A stretch of 64,000 nucleotides of DNA, taken from positions 124,001 through 188,000 of the IMG/VR virus record IMGVR_UViG_3300020122_000238. One strand, written 5' to 3'. The notes beneath the pieces are model-generated. The model had not been told where the DNA came from and ran no database searches. It saw only the letters and a list, made by a program, of their open reading frames with translations. A program made the translations under genes and the position numbers. Origin of the DNA: a virus. Shown here one piece after another: positions 28,689 through 59,032 of this stretch (the stretch's first letter is position 1; each line of letters begins with the position of its first letter).

Positions 28689-28899
28689 GCTGCGAGATCG
28701 ATCTGGCGAGGTGTGTATTGATTCGAAGCTTGTGAGCTTCCTCTACGATCTCATGCGAGATCATCTTCCGCCGGGGGTTGTGGAGACCCTCGTTCAAAAT
28801 GCGTCGAATCCAGACGTGACCTACACAAATGGTTGGTTGGCATCTTATGCCGAAGACCTCGCCAAGAGACTCGGCGACACCCCCAAAAGGATCAAATGA
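28681..28899 (+). CDS. Small protein, unknown
   Basis: 72 residues, overlapping the deoxynucleotidase end by 8 nt and the ThyA start by 4 nt. Helical; no recognised family. Confidence 0.6.
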   Translation: MTELRDRSGEVCIDSKLVSFLYDLMRDHLPPGVVETLVQNASNPDVTYTNGWLASYAEDLAKRLGDTPKRIK

Positions 28900-30014
28900 A
28901 GCAATATCAAGACGCAGTCCGACACGTCCTCGCCAACGGAACTCGCAAGGAGAATCGGACTGGGGTCGATACCCTATCGACTTTCGGATACTACTACGAA
29001 GTGGACCTCGCCGAGGGTTTCCCGCTCCTCACCACCAAGAACGTGAGCTGGAAGAACATCGTCGTTGAGCTTTTGTGGTTCCTCTCGGGTCAAACCGATA
29101 TCGCGATCCTCAAGCGCCACGGTTGCAAGTTCTGGGATGCTTGGGCGGACCCTGATACGGGCAAGGTCCCGAGCGCCTATGGCAACTTCTGGCGCAAGTT
29201 TCCGGTTCATCGTCAAGATGATCCGAAATCCCCCGCAGTCCAATCCAGGGGATCAGCCATTTCGCCTGACTTCAACGACCAGATCGCCTGGGTGCTCGCT
29301 GAGATGCGCAGGAACCCCATGAGTCGGCGGATGGTCGTCTCGGCTTGGGCTCCCGGAAACGCACAGACGAGCAAGCTCCCGCCCTGCCACTGCCTCTACG
29401 TGTTCAACGTGCAGAACGCGGACCCGACGCCGAGGTACGTGCATTACGGACACAATAGGGGAGAGGACCCTGTGTGCGGCAACTACAATGACGGCCGACG
29501 GGTTCTGCCGCACGGGGAAGGGATGAAGTATCGGGAGGCATGGTGCCCCGACTGCCAGGTCCTTCTCAACGGAGCGCGAGGGGGCGATGTCTTCAAGAAC
29601 CCTCCTGTGGGGGACGACCCGCGTCGCCTCTGCCTTCATTTGACGCAGAGATCGCTGGATGTAATGCTTGGCGCACCGTACAACCTCGCCTCGTACGCGC
29701 TGCTCATCGAGCTGTTCAGCCGGTTCACGGGAATCAAGCCTGGGATTTTCGGGCATTCCGTGGTCGACATGCACATCTACTGTGCCAAGCCCGATGGGTC
29801 TATGGCCGAATACGACCACACCCCTGGTGCTCGCGAGCAACTTACGAGAGAGCCCCGTCTTCTTCCTCGCCTCATCATCGATGACAGTATCAAGGACCTC
29901 AGCGATATCGAACGCCTGATGGATCCATCGGTCACTACAGAAGAAATCATGGGTCTCTTCCGCTTGGAAGGGTACAATCCACACCCGGCCATCAACTTCA
30001 AAGTTGCAGTCTGA
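28896..30014 (+). CDS. thyA: Thymidylate synthase (ThyA) with an internal insert
   Basis: 372 residues against about 264 for E. coli ThyA. Makes dTMP from dUMP. PPCHCLYVFNV carries the catalytic Cys (about 164), LTQRSLDVMLGAPYN is the signature block, SVVDMHIY the substrate region and the end is HPAINFKVAV. Between the Cys motif and LTQRS there are about 70 extra residues with Cys pairs (VCGNYND, WCPDCQ), possibly a zinc knuckle. The ATG overlaps the previous TGA. A homing endonuclease gene follows at once. Confidence 0.92.
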   Translation: MKQYQDAVRHVLANGTRKENRTGVDTLSTFGYYYEVDLAEGFPLLTTKNVSWKNIVVELLWFLSGQTDIAILKRHGCKFWDAWADPDTGKVPSAYGNFWRKFPVHRQDDPKSPAVQSRGSAISPDFNDQIAWVLAEMRRNPMSRRMVVSAWAPGNAQTSKLPPCHCLYVFNVQNADPTPRYVHYGHNRGEDPVCGNYNDGRRVLPHGEGMKYREAWCPDCQVLLNGARGGDVFKNPPVGDDPRRLCLHLTQRSLDVMLGAPYNLASYALLIELFSRFTGIKPGIFGHSVVDMHIYCAKPDGSMAEYDHTPGAREQLTREPRLLPRLIIDDSIKDLSDIERLMDPSVTTEEIMGLFRLEGYNPHPAINFKVAV

Positions 30015-30032: not shown

Positions 30033-30911
30033 TTGGACGTGGTGACTGAAGAGTTCCTCCGAAAGAAGTACCTTGGCGATCTGCTCTCCCTTCGGCAGAT
30101 CGCTTCTCTTTGTGGTGTGGCTGTCGGCACGATCCGCTACCACATGAAGCGCTTTGGGATTCCTCGCCGAACGAAATCCGAGGCCCTCTCTGGGGACAAG
30201 AACCCCATGCATGGGAAGACGAAGTCAGATGCGACCCGGCGGAAAACCTCAGAGACCCTTCAAGTCACAAATAAGGATCCTGATGTAAAGGCCCGCCGAA
30301 GCGCCTCAACTTCGGGGATCCGAAATCCCATGTATGGGAAAACACACACAGAAGAGGTAAAGGAAGCCGCACACACAAGGCTGAATTCTATACGACACAC
30401 CCCAGACTTTGTGTCAGCTCAAAAAGCTGCAATGCAACGACTGGAAGTCCGCCAAGCTCTCTCGGAGAGCGCCTCCCAAAGAGTGGGGGAGAAGAACCCC
30501 TTCTTTGGGCATGAGCATAGCTCCGAGACCAAGCAGAAAATAGCTCAAGCCAACCGAGGTCGTTTTCTAGGGGAGAAGGGTTCCAACTGGAAGGGCGGGA
30601 AGACTCGACTCTCAGCTCTGATTCGGAACTCCGAACCGGCAATCCGATGGCGAAAGGATGTCTTCAAGAGGGACGCCTATACTTGCCAGAGGTGTGGTCA
30701 AATTGGGGGTCAACTACAGGCGGATCACATTCAACCTCTTGCGGGGCTCCTCGACGAGCACTGCATCAAGACCCTCGAAGATGCGTTCAACTGTCCCACC
30801 CTCTGGGATTTGACCAACGGTCGGACGCTCTGCATTTCGTGTCACAAAAAGACGCCTTCCTACGCGGGCAACTATCAGAAGAATTATCCTGCGTTCAAGG
30901 TCGCGGTGTAG
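30033..30911 (+). CDS. HNH homing endonuclease with NUMOD3 repeats
   Basis: 292 residues. N-terminal helix-turn-helix (LRQIASLCGVAVGTIRYHMK), three NUMOD3-type repeats (KNPMHGK, RNPMYGK, KNPFFGH), then an HNH domain (CQRCG...LQADHIQPL...CISCHKKT). Start uncertain: TTG 30033 or GTG 30039. Its last residues, YPAFKVAV, copy the C terminus of ThyA just upstream (INFKVAV). Likely a mobile gene inserted at the thyA 3' end. Confidence 0.85.
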   Translation: MDVVTEEFLRKKYLGDLLSLRQIASLCGVAVGTIRYHMKRFGIPRRTKSEALSGDKNPMHGKTKSDATRRKTSETLQVTNKDPDVKARRSASTSGIRNPMYGKTHTEEVKEAAHTRLNSIRHTPDFVSAQKAAMQRLEVRQALSESASQRVGEKNPFFGHEHSSETKQKIAQANRGRFLGEKGSNWKGGKTRLSALIRNSEPAIRWRKDVFKRDAYTCQRCGQIGGQLQADHIQPLAGLLDEHCIKTLEDAFNCPTLWDLTNGRTLCISCHKKTPSYAGNYQKNYPAFKVAV

Positions 30912-37313: not shown

Positions 37314-38093
37314 ATGCCCCTCAAAGTCGCCGCTGTTCAATTCGCTCCTATGTATGGGGACAAGCTCGGAAATCTCCGCAGAGTCGCCAGGCTCGTTCTC
37401 CATGCGGCGGAGAACGGGGCCCGGCTTATCGTTCTCCCGGAGCTGGTCACCACGGGGTACAGCTTCATGGGCGAGGAGGATGCTATCCCTGTGGCTGAGG
37501 AAATCTCCCTCAACAGCCTGACGATGAAGGCGATGCACGCGCTCGCGTCCTCCTACAACGTCCACCTCGTCTGGGGAATGGTCGAGCGCGAGGTGGGCAC
37601 CAACAAGCTCTACAACAGCCAGGTCTACATCGACCCCACGGGCTACTTCGAGTCCTATCGCAAGGTCAACCTGTGGGGGAACGATATCCTTTGGGCGCAC
37701 GAGGGGAAGGGGAATCCACCCATCATCCGAGCGAAGTTCGAGGCAGGAATTGGGGAGCCTTCCACCACGATGCGGGTGGGGCTGCTCATCTGCCGAGACG
37801 TCCGAAACAAGAAGGACGATAAGTGGACCGACTTCTACGAGTCGGGGGATGCTGATGTCGTGTGCTTCTCAGCCAACTGGGGTAACGGGGGCTTCCCGTC
37901 AACGACGTGGTGGGACTTCGCGAGGGACAACAACACCTGGCTCATCGTCGCGAACCGCTACGGCAAAGAGGTTCCGAACGACTTCGGGGAGGGCGGCATC
38001 TGCGTCATTGAGCCTTCGGGGAAGGTCCACTGCGACGGCCTCAAGGGGCACTGGCTTCAGGACTGCATTGTCTATGCGGAGATCCCGGCATGA
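37314..38093 (+). CDS. Carbon-nitrogen hydrolase (nitrilase superfamily)
   Basis: 259 residues. The Glu-Lys-Cys triad is visible: LPELVTTGYSF (Glu), YRKVNLW (Lys), LLICRDV (Cys, about 162). Enzymes of this superfamily release ammonia from amides; the glutaminase domain of NAD synthetase is one branch. The closest function cannot be fixed here, but the presence of other NAD/ADP-ribose genes makes an NAD-related amidase attractive. Its end overlaps the ADP-ribosyltransferase-like gene. Confidence 0.85.
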   Translation: MPLKVAAVQFAPMYGDKLGNLRRVARLVLHAAENGARLIVLPELVTTGYSFMGEEDAIPVAEEISLNSLTMKAMHALASSYNVHLVWGMVEREVGTNKLYNSQVYIDPTGYFESYRKVNLWGNDILWAHEGKGNPPIIRAKFEAGIGEPSTTMRVGLLICRDVRNKKDDKWTDFYESGDADVVCFSANWGNGGFPSTTWWDFARDNNTWLIVANRYGKEVPNDFGEGGICVIEPSGKVHCDGLKGHWLQDCIVYAEIPA

Positions 38094-39202
38094 TTGCAGC
38101 TAGGGTTGTAGCTCGCTACCTTCGAGCAGACGAAGGCGAGGCGGACTCAGCGAAGGGGGGCGTTCCCGCTCGTTGGAAGGAGTGGTTGGACGCACTCCAC
38201 GATGGGGGGAAGTCGAGGATTACAAATCCCAACCCAGAAACGAAGAGCCGTCATCCGGAGGTATCGTACAGCACTGCCCTCAAGACTCCCCACTTCTTCA
38301 CGCATGCGCTGAAGGAGTACAAGGAGTGGGCGAAGAAGAACCCCGAGAAAGACGGAGGCACCCCAAAAAAGGAGAAAGCCCCTGAAAAAGAGACGGAGTC
38401 TTCTGGGCTCACCTTGAAGGGGCCCTTCAGCATCAAGCCCGGCACCATTGACGAAATGCTTGAGAAGCATAAGGCCCATTTTGATACCATTGTGGGGGGT
38501 TTGAAAAAGAAAGTCGATACCTACCTATCTTCAAGTGAGGTGTCTGAGGACCCTATCATGAAGAAGCACTTCCTTTCTCTTTCGCCCAATGAGAAAATGG
38601 TTCATGTGGGGGGCCATGAGATCGGGAAGTATTTCGAGGACAACGTTCTTTCAAAGGATGACGTTGAAATCCACGATATCTACTTCAATGCTTGGCGGAT
38701 CTCCGCTGGGAATAATGAATCAAATCATCTACATGGGATGATGGCAGCCTCGGGGGTGAAAGGATATAAAACCCCCGAGGAAGAGAAGGATGATGGGCGT
38801 ACAGACAAAAACCGTAAGTTCGGAGCGGGGGACGAAGAGCTTCATGGGTATGCACAGAAGATGTATGCTTTTCAACAAGCCTTTTTCAAACATATCGGCC
38901 TGAAGGAAGTGACTCTTTTCCGTGGGGTGCGTGGGCAAGGGTTGGACAAAGAGCCTCCCCATGAAGATGATTCCGTATCTTTCAAAGCTCGCGAGCTATC
39001 CTCGTATACAACGGACCCCCGTGTATCGGATGGGTATGGGCGGGCTCTCAAATTCAAAGTACCTGTTGAAAGAGTATTTGGGTCATCTCTTGTCCGACCC
39101 AAGATAGGATCGGACACCTCTCCAGGGTCATTTGGAGAAGCCGAAATGATCCTCATGGGAGCTTCTGACCTTCAAGGTACTATCATTAACAAGGCTGAGT
39201 AA
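38090..39202 (+). CDS. ADP-ribosyltransferase-like protein with RVVARYL N-terminal motif
   Basis: 370 residues. MIAARVVARYL carries the recurring RVxARY motif. A Lys/Glu-rich linker follows. The C-terminal ~180 residues show the R-S-E order of arginine-type ADP-ribosyltransferases: LFRGVRGQ (Arg, about 278), ELSSYTTDP (Ser-Thr, about 303), SFGEAEMIL (Glu-x-Glu, about 348). Phage T4 Alt is an ADP-ribosyltransferase carried in the capsid, so delivery with DNA is a reasonable inference. Less G/C-biased codons than neighbours. Confidence 0.7.
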   Translation: MIAARVVARYLRADEGEADSAKGGVPARWKEWLDALHDGGKSRITNPNPETKSRHPEVSYSTALKTPHFFTHALKEYKEWAKKNPEKDGGTPKKEKAPEKETESSGLTLKGPFSIKPGTIDEMLEKHKAHFDTIVGGLKKKVDTYLSSSEVSEDPIMKKHFLSLSPNEKMVHVGGHEIGKYFEDNVLSKDDVEIHDIYFNAWRISAGNNESNHLHGMMAASGVKGYKTPEEEKDDGRTDKNRKFGAGDEELHGYAQKMYAFQQAFFKHIGLKEVTLFRGVRGQGLDKEPPHEDDSVSFKARELSSYTTDPRVSDGYGRALKFKVPVERVFGSSLVRPKIGSDTSPGSFGEAEMILMGASDLQGTIINKAE

Positions 39203-39204
39203 AT

Positions 39205-39369
39205 ATGGCGGATATAGAGATCCATCTGTCTGGGGAAAACGAAGACTGGCTTTGTAAGAAAGATGACGAAGAACCCAAAAAGCCAAAAGAGGCGACGCTC
39301 GTTGAACGTGTGGCTCGGCGAGCGTCGCGATCAAAACGTCCCCCAAAAGAATCCGGAATGGTGTACTAG
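39205..39369 (+). CDS. Small acidic-basic protein with C-terminal RVARR motif
   Basis: 54 residues. The C-terminal TLVERVARRASRSKR resembles the RVxARY motif seen at the ends of other proteins. Starts 3 nt after the ART-like gene. The last codons carry the GGTGTA box of clpX. Confidence 0.55.
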   Translation: MADIEIHLSGENEDWLCKKDDEEPKKPKEATLVERVARRASRSKRPPKESGMVY

Positions 39370-39375: not shown

Positions 39376-40623
39376 ATGGCCCAAAACATCGCTAAGTGCT
39401 CGTTCTGTGGAAAGCCCCGCAATGAGGTGAAAGCCCTCGCGGGGAGTGACGGGGGCGCCCTCATCTGTGACAAGTGTGTGGGGCAGATCGGTCGAGCCTT
39501 CGGCGAAGCGGAGCTGAAGAAGAACGCCGACAAGAAGGAAGTCCTTCGCAAGCCCATGGAAATCCGGGCTTTCCTGGATCAATACGTCATCGGGCAGGAA
39601 CGGGCGAAGGTGGACATGGCGGTGGCTGTCTACAACCACTACAAGCGGCGGGATGCCATCCGCCAACACCTGGATCTCGGAGTCGAGATCCAGAAGAGCA
39701 ACATGATGGTCATCGGCCCGAGCGGGTGCGGCAAGACCGAGATCGCTCGAACCCTCGCCAGGATGCTGGGGGTGCCGATGTTCAACGCGGACGCCACCAA
39801 GCTGACACAGGCGGGCTACGTCGGAGATGACGTCGAGAGCTTGATCCAGGGGCTCATCGCGGATGCCAACGGGGACATCGAGCGTGCTCAATGGGGGATC
39901 ATCTTCATCGATGAGTTCGACAAGCTGGCTCGGAAGTCGGGGCGGGGGTCGACCGGCTATCGCGACGTCACGGGGGAAGGCGTTCAGCAGAGCCTCCTCA
40001 AACTCCTCGAAGGGAACAAGATCAACGTGCCCCGCGGGCAGATGAAGAGCACGTCGGGTGGCGAATCGGATCCGTTCGACACCACCAACGTGCTCTTCAT
40101 CTGCGCGGGATCCTTCGCTGGCATTGAGGACATCATCTCGCAACGGGTGAACCACAAGTCGAGCCTTGGATTCGGCGCGGAGGACAAGAAGAAGCTCTCC
40201 AAGACGGAGACCTACCTGGAGGTGAAGGAAGACGACATCCTCAGCTTTGGGATCATCCCCGAGCTGATGGGCCGCGTGCCGGTGCTCACGACGGTGATCG
40301 AGCTGACGGAGGATGAGATGTTGCAGATCCTCACGGAGCCCCGTAACGCCATCATCAAGCAGGTCAAGGCCCTCTTTCACATGGACCGCATCAATCTCCA
40401 GTTCGATGATGCCGCCCTCCGGCACATCGCCAAGGAGGCCAAGAAGCGCCCGACTGGAGCCCGCGGGCTTCGTTCCGTCGTCGAGAGCATCTTGGCTCCG
40501 TACGCCTACAGCTCGCCGAGCGACCCCACGATTGTCTCGATCCGGATCACGGAGGAAGCGACCATGGGGAAGGAGCAGGCCGTCATCCTCCGCAGGTATG
40601 TCCCGGCAGAAGCGGTGGGGTAA
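39376..40623 (+). CDS. clpX: ClpX-like AAA+ unfoldase
   Basis: 415 residues, full-length against bacterial ClpX. Zinc finger CSFCGK...CDKC at the N terminus, GPSGCGKTE (Walker A), GYVGDD (pore loop), IIFIDEFDKLA (Walker B), LIPELMGR-type IIPELMGRVP and TGARGLR (sensor 2). LGFGAED stands where bacterial ClpX has the IGF loop that docks ClpP, so it could redirect host ClpP. A complete ClpX is unusual in a phage. Confidence 0.92.
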   Translation: MAQNIAKCSFCGKPRNEVKALAGSDGGALICDKCVGQIGRAFGEAELKKNADKKEVLRKPMEIRAFLDQYVIGQERAKVDMAVAVYNHYKRRDAIRQHLDLGVEIQKSNMMVIGPSGCGKTEIARTLARMLGVPMFNADATKLTQAGYVGDDVESLIQGLIADANGDIERAQWGIIFIDEFDKLARKSGRGSTGYRDVTGEGVQQSLLKLLEGNKINVPRGQMKSTSGGESDPFDTTNVLFICAGSFAGIEDIISQRVNHKSSLGFGAEDKKKLSKTETYLEVKEDDILSFGIIPELMGRVPVLTTVIELTEDEMLQILTEPRNAIIKQVKALFHMDRINLQFDDAALRHIAKEAKKRPTGARGLRSVVESILAPYAYSSPSDPTIVSIRITEEATMGKEQAVILRRYVPAEAVG

Positions 40624-42434: not shown

Positions 42435-42468
42435 TCTTCTTGTTTTTCTCTTGTGCCCCTCCCTCAGT

Positions 42469-43260
42469 GTGAGTGACCTCGTCCATCGTGTTGCGAACCG
42501 CTATGCAGCGGTGGTCCTCCCTTTCAAACCCAAGTTTGGGGTCCCGACGGCCACCATTGGGGGTCGGAAGTACGTGCTCAGCACGTACCGTGGAGAGGGG
42601 ATGGACGTCTCGGAGAAAGTCAATGAGGGCGGCCCTGGAACGGGGCACGCTCGCTACATTCATCTCCCGAGCAACACCCCTTGGCGATACATATGGGTGT
42701 TCGATGCTGAGAAAAAGATCGTGGCCATGTGGCAAGTCTCTGAAGGGGACCTGAAGATCCACGGCCCTTCTGGGCACTTCGCTTCGATGATCGTGCATCT
42801 CGAAAAGAAGGGGCAGCTCAACCGGGTCACTCACGAAGAATACCGCGACCTCGAAAAGAAGATGGAGCTTGTCTACGACAAGACCGTGTCTGACCTCAAG
42901 ACTTTTTTCGAGCAGAACGACAGCGACTTCCAAAAGAAGGTCAATGCGGGCGTTCAGGAATACTATGCCAAGTACGTCAAGCCCAAGGTGGACAAGGCCA
43001 TCTCTGATGTGTTGAATGGTGCCACTCCTCTGGGGTTCAAGCCCTACGTGAGCCCGCACCGATCCACACAGAGCCAGGCTATCGGCTTCAACGTGGGGAT
43101 GGTTCTCAAGAGGGAGCTGGACCTATCGAAGGTTGAAGAGGCTCTGGTCCGCATGGGGATCAATGTGCATTCCCCCCACGAGGACAACCAGGCGACCTAC
43201 TGGGCCATCGGCGATATCAAGGATACAGTTCTTGACCGGCTTTCCACCGAGTATACCTGA
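42469..43260 (+). CDS. Protein with N-terminal RVANRY motif
   Basis: 263 residues from GTG 42469. MSDLVHRVANRY is almost the same as MYSDLVHRVADRF at 12207. The body begins with a compact alpha/beta region (GGRKYVLSTYRGEGMDVSEK) and then helices. No recognised family. An upstream TTG (42451) was rejected because it would place the motif later. Confidence 0.6.
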   Translation: MSDLVHRVANRYAAVVLPFKPKFGVPTATIGGRKYVLSTYRGEGMDVSEKVNEGGPGTGHARYIHLPSNTPWRYIWVFDAEKKIVAMWQVSEGDLKIHGPSGHFASMIVHLEKKGQLNRVTHEEYRDLEKKMELVYDKTVSDLKTFFEQNDSDFQKKVNAGVQEYYAKYVKPKVDKAISDVLNGATPLGFKPYVSPHRSTQSQAIGFNVGMVLKRELDLSKVEEALVRMGINVHSPHEDNQATYWAIGDIKDTVLDRLSTEYT

Positions 43261-43303: not shown

Positions 43304-44101
43304 ATGACTACACGTCGCACACTTCTCCGCGTTGTCGCTCGTTTCCAAATGCAGCTTGCCATGGAGCATTCATCGCCAGAAGAGCTGAAAGAGTACCTGC
43401 ACGAGCACCCCCAAGCCGACCCTGCGAACCACACCGTCACGAAGAAGGAAGAGCACGGGGGTGGTGATGAGCACGATGCCCCCAAGAAGTCCTGGAAAGA
43501 ACGCCTGCAAGGACTCGGGGCAAAGGCGAAGAAGTTCTACGAAGACGCGCCCGCGGGAGTCAAGCAGTTCTTCACCGACGATGCCTATCGTCGAACGGCG
43601 CTCATGGGAGCCCACAAAAAGCTGATGGATGCTCCGCACAACGTCGTTCAGCACGCCATTCAGACGGTCAAAAACGAGGTGAAGGAGTACAAGGATGCGG
43701 CAGCCGGGGTGAAGGCTGTCCTCAAGGGAGGCAAGATGACCCCCGAGCAGAAGCATGCCTTCAAGACGGTTGTCAAGCACATGGCTGTTACCGCAGCAGC
43801 AACGGCTCTAACAGTGAGTGGGGGGCCTCTTGTTGCTGCGGGTGCTTTTGGAAAGACGCTCGCAAAGAATCTCGCGATGCGAGCAGCACATGATGCTCTT
43901 GGCCATTATGATGGTCTCCACGAATACATGGAGATTGGCCACGGGATCCACAAACATCTCCATCACCTTCTCGCCGCGGATGAGGACGCCAAGGTGGACG
44001 AGGCGATCGCGAAGTTCGTCATGGCCAAGGTCGCCAAACAGATCCAGGACCTCGACATGGACGCGATCGAAGCGGCCCTCAAGGAAATGGACTCGGAGTA
44101 A
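43304..44101 (+). CDS. Protein with N-terminal RVVARF motif and hydrophobic helices
   Basis: 265 residues. MTTRRTLLRVVARFQMQLAM, then a spacer SPEELKEYLHEHPQADPANH, a basic helical domain (KKSWKERLQGLGAKAKKFYE) and a hydrophobic Ala/Gly-rich region (about residues 150-190) that could enter membranes. AAGGTG precedes the ATG. A pore or inner-virion role is possible; not recognised. Confidence 0.6.
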   Translation: MTTRRTLLRVVARFQMQLAMEHSSPEELKEYLHEHPQADPANHTVTKKEEHGGGDEHDAPKKSWKERLQGLGAKAKKFYEDAPAGVKQFFTDDAYRRTALMGAHKKLMDAPHNVVQHAIQTVKNEVKEYKDAAAGVKAVLKGGKMTPEQKHAFKTVVKHMAVTAAATALTVSGGPLVAAGAFGKTLAKNLAMRAAHDALGHYDGLHEYMEIGHGIHKHLHHLLAADEDAKVDEAIAKFVMAKVAKQIQDLDMDAIEAALKEMDSE

Positions 44102-50749: not shown

Positions 50750-51084
50750 TCTTCTACCGAAGCGGGGACATAACCCGAACCCAAATCCGACCTTCGATGA
50801 GGCGTTGGAAGAAAGAAAAGCTTCTCGATGCGATCCGAGAGGCCATCAAAGATAAGTTCTCTACTTCGAATCCCAACAACTACTCTCGCCATGTCTTCAT
50901 TGAAGAATTCGTCAACATGTTTCTAGCCAAGCAGGCTCTTGTGGCTTGGTGCTTCTCGCGACTGAAGATTGAAGGCATCCTCGGGGCGCCTGTGAATCGG
51001 ATGCCTCACGACTGTTTTCGAGGCATCTGGAACCCCACATCGAGGTGGCAAGCAACCCGTTTCCCCGTTCTACTGGAAACATGA
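50746..51084 (+). CDS. Winged-helix-like protein, paralogue of 50399
   Basis: 112 residues, ATGA overlap. Second copy of the duplicated gene; about half of the aligned residues in the C-terminal block are identical by eye. Confidence 0.6.
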   Translation: MIFYRSGDITRTQIRPSMRRWKKEKLLDAIREAIKDKFSTSNPNNYSRHVFIEEFVNMFLAKQALVAWCFSRLKIEGILGAPVNRMPHDCFRGIWNPTSRWQATRFPVLLET

Positions 51085-51617
51085 TCCACTACCTAAAAGG
51101 CGACGCCACGCGACCTCAAGGCACGGGGATGCGGTACATCGTCCACGTCTGTAACGACGTTGGGGGTTGGGGCCGTGGTTTTGTCTTGGCGCTATCCAAG
51201 CGTTGGTCAGAACCTGAGCAAGCCTATCGAGAATGGCATCGAAATGGGAGCCCCCATCGAAGCGGGAAATTCGCTCTTGGGGAGGTTCAGAGTGTGAGTG
51301 TCCAGGGGCCTCCCTACCCTGAGAACACAGGGCTTTGGGTGATGAACATGATCGCTCAGACGGGCTATGGCTTCAAGAAGACGCAGCACAAGGGAGCAGA
51401 TGATAGCGGGCCCCCCATTCGCTACGACGCGCTGAGGGAGTGCCTCCGAAAGGTTGCAAAGGCTGCCAGGATCACCCGAGCCTCAATACACATGCCGAGG
51501 ATCGGGTGTTCTTTGGCTGGTGGATCCTGGATGGAAGTCTCCAAGATCATCGAAGAGACCATGCCCGACCTCGATGTATATGTGTATGACCTTCCTGGGG
51601 GGTCCTATCGAGCATGA
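51081..51617 (+). CDS. Macro-domain protein (ADP-ribose processing)
   Basis: 178 residues. MIHYLKGDATRP, HVCNDVGGWGRGF (catalytic Asn-Asp and glycine loop) and PRIGCSLAGGSW are the macro-domain ligand loops, nearest to the Poa1/ADP-ribose-1''-phosphatase type. It probably hydrolyses or binds ADP-ribose products. ATGA overlap with the previous gene. Confidence 0.85.
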   Translation: MIHYLKGDATRPQGTGMRYIVHVCNDVGGWGRGFVLALSKRWSEPEQAYREWHRNGSPHRSGKFALGEVQSVSVQGPPYPENTGLWVMNMIAQTGYGFKKTQHKGADDSGPPIRYDALRECLRKVAKAARITRASIHMPRIGCSLAGGSWMEVSKIIEETMPDLDVYVYDLPGGSYRA

Positions 51618-53948: not shown

Positions 53949-54317
53949 CTTCGGCTTCTTCAGGATCAGGGCGAGCTGTGCCGCGAAAGAGACCTGTTCC
54001 CTGGTCGGGCCCGGCTCACCCTTCGCGATCTTCTTCAGCTCCTTCTGGACAGCCTTGACAGCTCGCTTTGCGGGGGCTTCCTTCGACCAGCCGACCAGGC
54101 GATCCTCAACGGATTGCCCTGCGAAATCCTTCGGGTTGGCCAGGAAACAGGCCTGGAAGAGCCTGCAATGAAGGCTTTCATCCATGAAAGCTGCCCGAAG
54201 AGGCTCACTCTCGCCGTCTTCCGAGATGAGGTAGACACGGAAAGCCTTGGGGTCATCCCACTCCGCGAACACACCGTTGATTTTGCTAGCGTCTTCTTTG
54301 ATCTTGGAGGTAGACAT
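53943..54317 (-). CDS. Hypothetical protein
   Basis: 124 residues starting MSTSKIKEDASKINGVFAEW. Helical, Lys-rich C terminus. Its stop lies inside the upstream box of the next unit. No recognised family. Confidence 0.65.
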   Translation of the reverse strand: MSTSKIKEDASKINGVFAEWDDPKAFRVYLISEDGESEPLRAAFMDESLHCRLFQACFLANPKDFAGQSVEDRLVGWSKEAPAKRAVKAVQKELKKIAKGEPGPTREQVSFAAQLALILKKPKG

Positions 54318-54353
54318 GCTTCTCTTACACACCGGAAACCTTGAGGATCAACC
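54318..54353 (-). promoter_or_regulatory. GGTTGATC-16-TGTA promoter-like element
   Basis: GGTTGATC at 54353-54346, 16 nt, TGTA at 54329-54326, AGAGAAGC, ATG. Here the spacer ends in CCGGTG, so a partial GGTGTG box also overlaps. Confidence 0.7.
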
Positions 54354-54387
54354 GGAAAGTATTGATAGCGGCCCTCTCCGTAGAGAC

Positions 54388-54660
54388 ATGGCTTCTCGTG
54401 AAATGACCGCTAGGGGGTTCTTCGATGTGGGGGACCGGATTCTGTACGGCAAGTACAAGAACAAGAAGGGCCGGATCGTCTCCGTGGGGCTCGACGTCAA
54501 GGGAAACCCCATCATCGAGATTGAGCCCGTCCCCAAGGGCCGGAAGAAGAACCAGATCATCGGGCTCTACAAGATATGGCATGACCCTCCGCCGGCACTT
54601 GCTCAGAAGGTGCTCGCTCGTTACACCCAGTCCGCCATGCTCGACGACGGGGAAGACTGA
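54388..54660 (+). CDS. Small protein with C-terminal VLARY motif
   Basis: 90 residues. Central beta region (GDRILYGKYKNKKGRIVSVG) and a C-terminal PPALAQKVLARYTQS matching the recurring motif. The longer ORF from 54247 runs antisense to the 54317 gene and was rejected. Confidence 0.6.
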   Translation: MASREMTARGFFDVGDRILYGKYKNKKGRIVSVGLDVKGNPIIEIEPVPKGRKKNQIIGLYKIWHDPPPALAQKVLARYTQSAMLDDGED

Positions 54661-54663
54661 ACC

Positions 54664-56544
54664 ATGTCTCTGACCTCTCGGGTTCTTGCCCGTTACCTCG
54701 AAGCAAAGAAGGCTCCTGATCCGGAGTTTTTCCTCTCCGCCAAGTTCTTCCGAGAGCAGAAGGCGGACTTGACGAAACGGCTCAAGGCACCGTTGAAGTC
54801 AGGCTCTCGTGGTCTGGACTCAATGGAATACGTTATTGGGGATACACTCACCCCCTTCTTCAAGAAGTTCGAGCAGGACTTTGCTGCCGTCATCACCTAT
54901 CAAAAAGCTTTGGACTTCGTACACCAAGCTGTTGAAGGCACCATCGCAAAGCTTGCGAAAATCGGGGATTACGCTCGTTTTGTGGGAACCATCGTCCCCT
55001 TGCCGCCCAAAGGAGATGTAGAGGCCGAGCTTCGCTGGCTGGCGCATAATGAGGCTTTGGGCGTTTTTGAGGAGAAGGTCAGTAACCTACAGGACTTTCT
55101 CAAGTATGAGTGGGATGTTGACAAGCATCTTCGAGAAGTGCTCGTCAACAGAACGTCCGTGGGCATTACCACTCCAGAATTGAAGAAAGCTTTCGAAGCC
55201 TCTTGGGATGATTCCTATGGGGACGTCAATAGCTTGCTAAGGTGGGAATACCTCACCCAAATGCACTTCTACGACACGGCAAAGAAGACTCTCAAGAGGA
55301 AGCCTCCGGCAGACCCCATCACGTTTTACACCCAATGGGTTGGAGCTGTGTATGAGGCTCTATTCAGGTTCAATTCCGATTACGTAGACCCTGCCAAACC
55401 CCTGTACCGAGAGATCGACCTCTACGGGATGAAGGTTGTCATCAATGACAACACTGTCACCCCGGAGGATACGGGGAACTACATTCAGTTCATCGATGAG
55501 ACATACGCTCGGCTTCGAGCCAAGAAGCTTGAATCTGCCTGGTATGGGCACATTCTCATTGAATGTAAGGAGTGCGGGGGCATCAACTCCAACGGAGCGG
55601 ACTATGGTGTGGGGGGCAACTATACAGTCAAGGAAGATACTGTTCGTATCTTTGACCGTCCCGGCAGGTATATCGTAGACCTTTTGGCGCACGAGCTGGG
55701 GCATCGCTACTGGTATCAAAAACTGACGTCTGAGCAACGCACACACTTCGCAGATCTGGTCAGGGTACACAAGCGCTCCCGTCCAGACCCCAAGAAGATG
55801 ACCCCCCCGTACATCATCAGCCCTGAAAGGGAGAAGAAAGTAAAGGGTATGATTCTTGACTATGGCGTCAAGATTGTACACGTCCTTGCTGAGTTCCGGG
55901 ACTCCAAAGAGGGGTATACCTCGGACATGGCCAAGTTTCGACCGCAACTCTCAAGTCTTGCGGAAGACTTCAAAGACGAGACCAACTACACTCTTGACTA
56001 CGCCGGTACAGAAAGGGATATCACCCCCGCAGTATCCGACCTATTCAAAGAAGTTCAGAAGGACGCCCAAAAGGTGGTCGAGACCTTGAGCTATGCCTCC
56101 AGGCTGGACAATTACTTGTACACGTCTCCTGACGAAAACGCCGAGAACCAAGCGTTCTCGGAACTCAAAGAGAACGTGTATAAAGAGGTGGTCAAGTTTC
56201 TCGATGACCACATGAACTCCGCGTATAGCTTCATCAAGCTAGCTATCATGGCGCACAACGCGAAAGAAACCAGAGAGCACGACCCGGCGGTCAAGACCAA
56301 AGAGTGGCAAGCTGAGTTCGACAACGACCCCAGGCCTGTGTCCCCCTTCTCAGAATACGGGAGCAACAACATCAGCGAGGCATGGGCGGAGGTGTTCATG
56401 GCCTACGTCACGAACAAGGACCTTGACAGGGATCAGCTCGAATCGTTCAAGACCATCCTGAAGCGATCCTCCCTCGTGACAGCCGAGCAAGTGCTTGCTC
56501 GCTTCCGGCTTCTTGTGGAAGATTGCTCTTGTACGTCGACCTGA
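54664..56544 (+). CDS. Zinc metalloprotease-like protein with RVLARYL motif
   Basis: 626 residues. MSLTSRVLARYLEAK opens the protein, and EQVLARFRLL repeats the motif near residue 607. The middle has LLAHELGHRYW (HExxH-type, about residue 342) and SEAWAEVFMAYV (possible third ligand Glu, about 572), as in gluzincins. A CKECGG cluster occurs near residue 300. A protease delivered in the virion or processing virion proteins is possible. Codons are less G/C-biased than in the replication genes. Confidence 0.7.
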   Translation: MSLTSRVLARYLEAKKAPDPEFFLSAKFFREQKADLTKRLKAPLKSGSRGLDSMEYVIGDTLTPFFKKFEQDFAAVITYQKALDFVHQAVEGTIAKLAKIGDYARFVGTIVPLPPKGDVEAELRWLAHNEALGVFEEKVSNLQDFLKYEWDVDKHLREVLVNRTSVGITTPELKKAFEASWDDSYGDVNSLLRWEYLTQMHFYDTAKKTLKRKPPADPITFYTQWVGAVYEALFRFNSDYVDPAKPLYREIDLYGMKVVINDNTVTPEDTGNYIQFIDETYARLRAKKLESAWYGHILIECKECGGINSNGADYGVGGNYTVKEDTVRIFDRPGRYIVDLLAHELGHRYWYQKLTSEQRTHFADLVRVHKRSRPDPKKMTPPYIISPEREKKVKGMILDYGVKIVHVLAEFRDSKEGYTSDMAKFRPQLSSLAEDFKDETNYTLDYAGTERDITPAVSDLFKEVQKDAQKVVETLSYASRLDNYLYTSPDENAENQAFSELKENVYKEVVKFLDDHMNSAYSFIKLAIMAHNAKETREHDPAVKTKEWQAEFDNDPRPVSPFSEYGSNNISEAWAEVFMAYVTNKDLDRDQLESFKTILKRSSLVTAEQVLARFRLLVEDCSCTST

Positions 56545-57324: not shown

Positions 57325-57621
57325 ATGAACGATCTCACGCTTAGGGTTGCGGCCCGCTATGCTCTTGCTTCGGGGGTGGTCCTTGTCAAAAGCAAGGTGA
57401 AGGGGAATTACAGAACAGTAGATGGTGCCTACTGGTTTCGCCCCATGGAGACGCATAACAACAACACTCGTCCTGAACGCTATGATGTCATTCGGATGAG
57501 TGACCGGGTTACAGTTGCTGAGGGTATGACCCTCGCTACCGCTAAAAGGCGATTTGAGGCTTATCTCAAGGATGTTGAGACTGGGTCGCCGCTTCAAAAA
57601 CTTCCTTATGATCGTGGTTGA
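57325..57621 (+). CDS. Small protein with N-terminal RVAARY motif
   Basis: 98 residues. MNDLTLRVAARYALASG then a small alpha/beta domain (GAYWFRPMETHNNN...MTLATAKRRFEAYLKD). GAAGG precedes the ATG. Unknown. Confidence 0.65.
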   Translation: MNDLTLRVAARYALASGVVLVKSKVKGNYRTVDGAYWFRPMETHNNNTRPERYDVIRMSDRVTVAEGMTLATAKRRFEAYLKDVETGSPLQKLPYDRG

Positions 57622-57655: not shown

Positions 57656-59032
57656 ATGAAAGCAATGAGCACGTCTCAATCTCTTCGCGTTTTGGCGAAG
57701 TATAAAGCCAAAAAGAAGGTCAAGAATCAAGACGGCGAGGACATGACCGTCTACGAGTATTCCGACAAGCAAATCGCCAACCGGAACCGGGAGAAGGCGA
57801 AGCGAATCGAGAAGCTCCGAGGCAAGATCGACGACGTCCGCTCGAAGGCCAAGAAGGACCTGAAGTCGAGCGACCCCGAGAAGATGCTCACGGCACTCGC
57901 CGTGATGCTGATGGACCACACGTATGAAAGGGTTGGGAACGACGAGAGCGCGGACGACGGGCACTTTGGGGTCACGGGCTGGCAGAAGGACCACATCACC
58001 TTCAGCAAGGGCGGGGCGACCATCAAGTACGTCGGCAAGTCCGGCGTCAAGCACGTCAAGAAGGTGACCGACTCGACCATCACCAAGGCGCTCAAGGATG
58101 CCTGTGAGGCGGCTGAGAACGAGACGTCTTGCATCTTCGAGTGGGACGGGGGCAAGGTCTCAGCCGAGAAGGTGAACGCCTACCTGAAGGAGTTCGACAT
58201 CTCGGCGAAGGATATCCGTGGGCTACATGCAAATGTCGAAATGCAGGAACAGCTCAAGGCTGCCAGGAAGAAGGGCGGCAAGCTTCCCGAGGACCCCAAG
58301 AAGCGGGATAAGCAGCTCAAAGAGGAGTTCAAAGAAGCACTCGAAGTCACGGCGGAAGCCGTAGGCCACGAGCCTGCCACGCTGAAGAGCCAATATTTGG
58401 TCCCTGGAATGGAGGAAGATTTCTTGAAGGACGGCGTGATCAACGAGAAGCTCCACACGAAGACGGCAGATCTCAAGCAGGGGTGCGCCGGCTGTAGTTG
58501 CCACGCTAAACCCGAGGAGCACGACCAGTCGGAACGGGTGATTGCTCGTTTCTTGAGCCAGGACAAGAAAGCGGTGGGGTATTACGATACCGATCGTGAT
58601 GAGACTTGGGTGGATCCTACAAAGGACCTCGACAAGTGGCTTGATAGGCTTCTACGCTTGACTCAAGAGGCCAAACGAGATGCCCCAGGAGAGCATCGAC
58701 GTGGAGAAGGCCCTGGGAAGGCCTATCTAGAGCTTTCCAGCTTTATGGGAGACCGGGAGCACACGAAGTGGTACAAGTTCTTCTATGCTTCCACTGTTCA
58801 GAAGGATGTCTCGTCCGCTATAGTCCCCAACGACTATAGCGATCCCAAGATGGCGCAAGACTACAGTCAATGGCTCGACAAGTTGGAGGACGCTATCAAG
58901 GACGCGGACGCGGAAATCCGTAGGGATGACCGTCCTGGAGACAAGATGTTCGAGCTGAAATGGATCATGAAGAACTACAGTAAAGAGAAGTGGTATGCCT
59001 ATTACTTCATGCAGTCCATGACATTCCGGTGA
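57656..59032 (+). CDS. Type IB DNA topoisomerase with extra C-terminal domain
   Basis: 458 residues. The viral-type topoisomerase IB core has YERVGNDES (Arg, about 89), a Lys in KYVGKSGVKHV, AKDIRGLHANVEMQE (Arg/His region) and SQYLVP (Tyr nucleophile, about 246). MSTSQSLRVLAKYKAKKK carries the motif, and SERVIARFLSQDKK (about 294) repeats it before a ~150-residue helical domain unknown to me. It relaxes supercoils. The start may be Met4. Confidence 0.85.
   Translation: MKAMSTSQSLRVLAKYKAKKKVKNQDGEDMTVYEYSDKQIANRNREKAKRIEKLRGKIDDVRSKAKKDLKSSDPEKMLTALAVMLMDHTYERVGNDESADDGHFGVTGWQKDHITFSKGGATIKYVGKSGVKHVKKVTDSTITKALKDACEAAENETSCIFEWDGGKVSAEKVNAYLKEFDISAKDIRGLHANVEMQEQLKAARKKGGKLPEDPKKRDKQLKEEFKEALEVTAEAVGHEPATLKSQYLVPGMEEDFLKDGVINEKLHTKTADLKQGCAGCSCHAKPEEHDQSERVIARFLSQDKKAVGYYDTDRDETWVDPTKDLDKWLDRLLRLTQEAKRDAPGEHRRGEGPGKAYLELSSFMGDREHTKWYKFFYASTVQKDVSSAIVPNDYSDPKMAQDYSQWLDKLEDAIKDADAEIRRDDRPGDKMFELKWIMKNYSKEKWYAYYFMQSMTFR

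Follow-up and report, generated by a model that had tools for sequence, protein, structure and literature searches.

A tagged DraT-like ADP-ribosyltransferase of a huge phage, a candidate injected effector, and the recurrent tag of its clade

Phage ADP-ribosyltransferases and the gene described here

MuF-fused and polyvalent phage ADP-ribosyltransferases (ARTs) have been described (PMC5512222, PMC9503650), and about 44% of phage ARTs in a survey occur in contexts suggesting head packaging (PMC9503650). T4 Alt is a virion-packaged ART of the R-S-E class. Here we describe a tagged ART gene in a 64,000-nt stretch of DNA (hereafter, the window), which covers bases 124001-188000 of the 275,300-bp virus record IMGVR_UViG_3300020122_000238 (this phage, G000). 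The ART would be an effector that is sorted by a short N-terminal tag recurring on many proteins of related phages.

The major capsid protein of this phage shares 90-100% identity with those of the 80 best-matching metagenomic viral contigs; for Bacillus phage G and Tunturiibacter phage Tunturi_5, the figure is 39-48%. Judged from these identities, the phage is a member of a clade of huge phages, most of them uncultured.

Among named families, DraT (dinitrogenase reductase ADP-ribosyltransferase, PF07357) comes closest and resembles the window ART in its catalytic half and in the R-S-E signature. Unlike DraT, the window ART has different N-terminal parts, with only model positions ~150-253 of 256 being matched, and has no adjacent DraG. 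A DraG-type ADP-ribosylglycohydrolase is encoded in G000 ~90 kb from the ART, but is absent from G006, a phage with an ART orthologue, and present in phages without the ART. As the glycohydrolase does not track the ART, a DraT-DraG pair was ruled out and none is claimed.

The original prediction had likened the protein to T4 Alt. The R-S-E class is indeed common to both, but the nearest family is DraT, and no sequence match to the Alt family was found in Pfam, PHROGs or phage records. Head delivery with a targeting peptide is proposed for the window ART, although its tag is unrelated in appearance to that of Alt, occurs on many proteins and is also found internally; Alt thus offers a works-like analogy only. 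The MuF-fused ARTs include a homologous ART domain (L103), and their effector classes overlap with those described below (metallopeptidase, ART), whereas the window ART carries a short tag and is a protein of its own rather than a head-domain fusion; no MuF head domain was found in it with Pfam or PHROGs. The uncharacterised SP15_258 of Bacillus phage SP-15 gives a tblastn match with the L103 ART domain, but differs from the window ART in its N-terminal part. VIP2 and C3-type ARTs in the PDB share the fold and the R-S-ExE signature, a kinship at the level of fold that does not imply a similar target.

Domain layout of the ART

The ORF starts with ATG at 38090, ends with TAA at 39200-39202 and is present as a single copy in the 275,300-bp record. 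Its features are as follows.

38090..39202, + strand: tagged ADP-ribosyltransferase gene, 370 aa; intact ORF, with homologues, an alignment and an AlphaFold model
38093..38128, + strand: N-terminal tag IAARVVARYLRA (residues 2-13), which recurs on many clade proteins
38153..38350, + strand: WKEWLD..NPNP..STALK module (residues 22-87), which in L099 and L128 is linked to another C-terminal domain
38444..38896, + strand: helical region (residues 119-269), from the AlphaFold model
38897..39199, + strand: ART core (residues 270-370), from the alignment, the AlphaFold model and fold search
38921-38923, 38999-39001, 39137-39139 and 39143-39145, + strand: active-site codons of R278, S304, E350 and E352, respectively

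The motifs LFRGVRG, ELSSYTTDP and GEAEM are all present, so that the ORF and its three motifs, given as SSYTTDP for the second in the original prediction, are exactly as described there.

Evidence for an ADP-ribosyltransferase

Single-sequence searches with the ART protein gave no match in Pfam, PHROGs, the PDB, phage records or viral contigs. Full-length orthologues are encoded in G006 (L095, 47% identical) and in a 512-kb contig (L098, 41% identical), and five further, distant ART domains were found (L102, L103, L104, L232 and L243), of which L104, a bacterial ART-like protein, was the one recovered in a second scan of genome contigs, the first scan having yielded no ART relatives. A match in G007 (L096, 14 bits) was set aside, as the protein it hits is not a convincing ART. 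In the alignment of eight sequences, R278, S304 and E352 are invariant, and all sequences except one retain E350 of the E-x-E, indicating that the R-S-ExE set is under constraint across orthologues of 41-47% identity. L098 passes the cut-off of the Pfam DRAT family (PF07357; 1.1e-10, 41.6 bits against a cut-off of 25, model positions 151-253), and L095 matches it weakly, below the cut-off (3.3e-4, 20.4 bits). Because the match is limited to the catalytic half and L098 alone passes, the window protein is described from its sequence as having a DraT-like catalytic domain, not as a DraT.

The AlphaFold model built with the homologue alignment has a pLDDT of 73.8 and a pTM of 0.64, as compared with a pLDDT of 46 for that built from the single sequence, and R278, S304 and E352 lie on or at the predicted strands 273-280, 303-307 and 352-356. 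In Foldseek searches, the first 11 PDB matches were all R-S-E ART chains; against viral models, the best match was SP15_258 (AMM45065.1; 1.8e-6), followed by other phage proteins, one with a head-morphogenesis domain. The original prediction of an R-S-E transferase is thus borne out as regards fold and active-site residues, for which the assignment is secure: the predicted fold is that of an ART and the Glu-x-Glu is correctly placed, with the invariant E352 at strand 352-356. We infer from this active site that the protein is a mono-ADP-ribosyltransferase, which would be catalytically active and specific for arginine.

The ART gene lies outside the main structural cluster, with metabolic neighbours (thymidylate synthase, DHFR, CN-hydrolase). 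This location would suit an enzyme that, like T4 ModA/ModB, is produced and acts inside the infected cell, and since ART activity is a prediction, the protein might instead be an ART-fold NAD hydrolase, the tag in either case being used otherwise; ART-fold NAD(P) glycohydrolases are known (PMC13285283). However, the G006 orthologue is located among tail/structural genes, and the orthologues show constraint on the complete R-S-ExE set. Both variants seem distinctly unlikely.

This phage also encodes a set of NAD/ADP-ribose genes, consisting of a nicotinamide/nicotinate phosphoribosyltransferase, a nucleotidyltransferase that may be NMNAT-like, the ADP-ribosylglycohydrolase and a weak macro-domain match (L010:9056-10552, L012:9296-10459, L012:15143-16123 and window 51045-51617).

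The recurrent tag

The tag has the clade consensus L-A-x-R-V-A-x-R-Y/F-L-x-A, and its recurrence is real. With genes called by a codon-usage script, the strict motif [RK][VI][AV]xR[YF] occurs 33 times in five clade phages, as compared with a mean of 1.4 and a maximum of 5 in 200 shuffles, with the caveats that the pattern was selected post hoc and that shuffling residues preserves no more than composition. With a looser pattern, each phage has 10-16 matches, against 1.3-3.2 in shuffles. The strict motif is found once in phage G, not at all in Tunturi_5 and twice in LR745208, which served as controls. Around the capsid gene in ~65 contigs (1.0 Mb), some of them near-duplicates, the coding strand has 51 tags and the opposite strand 2. 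Chance as the origin of the motif was ruled out by the shuffles, the strand comparison and the control phages. These counts support the original prediction that the RVVARYL start is shared with other proteins. As for the placement of the motif at protein starts, residues 1-40 hold 22 of the 33 occurrences (binomial p = 8.5e-11), but the motif is not confined to N-termini. Tag variants were not found in print in the open-access literature searched, and reports elsewhere are possible.

Among 71 non-redundant instances, the positions conserved outside the pattern are L/I at -3, A at -2, L at +6 and A at +8. With L conserved at +6 and A at +8, behind R-[YF], the motif could be where the phage head maturation protease cuts ([YF]-[LI]-x-A), and so mark processing, with or without packaging. 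Such a motif resembles herpesvirus protease sites, the head cluster includes a head-maturation-protease-like gene, and tags occur in linkers as well as at termini. Cleavage would, however, leave unexplained the strongest conservation, R-V-A-x-R, which would precede the cut, and less than half of the tag instances have A at +8. This explanation seems improbable.

The slot between the CN-hydrolase and clpX genes

The ART gene occupies a slot between two conserved genes.

37314..38093, + strand: CN-hydrolase gene, conserved left border of the slot, overlapping the ART start (ATGA)
39205..39369, + strand: 54-aa ORF beginning MADIEIHLSGENEDWL.., with a tag-like RVARRAS
39376..40623, + strand: clpX gene, conserved right border of the slot

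The CN-hydrolase and clpX genes form a landmark in the clade with tagged genes around it. In this phage the gap between them is filled by the ART; in G005, G008, G009 and G013 it contains tagged HExxH metalloprotease-like proteins, and in G006, G007 and G033 small, mostly tagged ORFs; no tagged gene was found in the gap in G004 and G010. The content of the slot is exchangeable across sister phages. In each of the three ART-bearing phages, the ART is followed by a small ORF with a start like EIHL..ENEDW.

Of 12 phages examined, most have tagged genes next to clpX, and the tag could accordingly be a recognition element for phage ClpX or an adaptor, serving in unfolding, remodelling or degradation instead of packaging. 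Many tagged proteins are nevertheless encoded far from clpX, in the head cluster, and phage G has clpX yet essentially no tag, so we regard this role as unlikely, though deserving some weight. A published survey suggests that phage ClpX may serve as a translocase or take part in virion assembly (PMC7824862), so that the ClpX and packaging models may be combined into one.

Two further observations concern these genes. In G032, the clpX match is split into two pieces ~1 kb apart within one 795-aa open frame (G032:277116-279440), which points to an insertion, perhaps an intein. In the window, a thymidylate synthase-like ORF (28833-30014) and an HNH-type ORF (30033-30911) have similar ends (AINFKVAV and PAFKVAV), which suggests a homing endonuclease at the 3' end of the synthase-like gene.

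Tagged proteins and shuffled modules

The tag marks topoisomerase IB in G000, G002, G006 and G033, several HExxH metalloprotease-like proteins, J-domain (DnaJ) proteins, an Ala/Gly-rich membrane-like protein, small proteins and the ART, and it is carried by long head-cluster proteins encoded 5-9 kb upstream of the capsid gene. Besides the ART, the window includes the following tagged genes.

42451..43260, + strand: ORF with N-terminal tag (DLVHRVANRYAA)
43304..44101, + strand: tag (LLRVVARFQ), YLHEHPQAD module and Ala/Gly-rich membrane-like domain
54247..54660, + strand: ORF with C-terminal tag (QKVLARYTQS)
54664..56544, + strand: HELGH metalloprotease-like protein with N-terminal tag SRVLARYLEA and a tag-like QVLARFRLL near the C-terminus
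57325..57621, + strand: 98-aa ORF with N-terminal tag (LTLRVAARYALAS)
57656..59032, + strand: topoisomerase IB (PF01028, 8e-27), with N-terminal and internal tags

In L099 and L128, the WKEWLD..NPNP..STALK module stands behind the same tag on a non-ART C-terminal domain, and a second module, YLHEHPxAD, shuffles likewise. Such joining of a module to different domains is as expected for what may be exchangeable delivery modules. For one metalloprotease-like protein (L118), a match to ATLF (E 0.009) was below the cut-off and was taken as generic zinc-peptidase resemblance.

The YLHEHPxAD..H module adjoins the tag in several phages (window 43304-44101; L107:2368-3249; L021; L053) and lies 1-2.5 kb downstream of the capsid gene in two phages. 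A second motif in G000, the C-terminal tail AWexLLxDD, is present on 7 of 272 proteins (0.02 expected in shuffles), at L011:2026, 2539 and 13165, L012:3237, 4684 and 6905, and window 19002; it was not found in four tag-bearing relatives checked. In L102:1-8703 and L243, phages with a related ART domain, SAAGRYAAxxRWxG recurs on adjacent proteins (GNAT-like, ART, metalloprotease-like and others), possibly representing an analogous tag system.

A model for sorting and injection of the ART

We consider it reasonably probable that the ART is an effector with a clade-specific sorting tag, most likely packaged in the virion, injected and host-modifying. The catalytic domain (270-370) is preceded by a helical region, a linker that is flexible and two elements of delivery type, namely the 12-residue Arg/Tyr tag and the WKEWLD module, both of which are re-used by phages of this group on different proteins. 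The tag marks an exchangeable, effector-like set (topoisomerase IB, HExxH metalloprotease-like, J-domain and membrane-like proteins, and the ART) and would most likely sort the marked proteins into the virion, thereby allowing their entry into the host alongside the DNA. Once injected, the ART would ADP-ribosylate arginine residues of one or several host proteins at an early stage of infection. We infer packaging and injection from the tagged head-cluster genes, the tagged cargo classes, the MuF-type ART homologue (L103, where the domain is within a head protein with HExxH motifs) and the published context of phage ARTs (PMC9503650).

Several points weigh against this reading. The window ART protein is itself below every family cut-off, and its PDB fold matches have E-values of 0.05-0.5 and 8-15% identity, none being below 0.001. 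The ART was found in 3 of ~35 related records searched, many of which are fragments. Tags are also internal and C-terminal, and orthologues can be without a tag.

More tentatively, the tag could be a general sorting signal of the whole clade, one short peptide loading exchangeable effectors into the virion, perhaps aided by the adjacent phage ClpX. The ART alone is a known kind of protein, which would add a DraT-like branch to the phage ARTs; the clade-wide tag with its shuffled modules is the more interesting part. The injected proteins of huge phages are largely unknown because most such phages are uncultured. If the model is true, a sorting tag in the sequence alone would provide a readout of the injected proteome, and a cargo-marking tag would make it a readable property of the genome.
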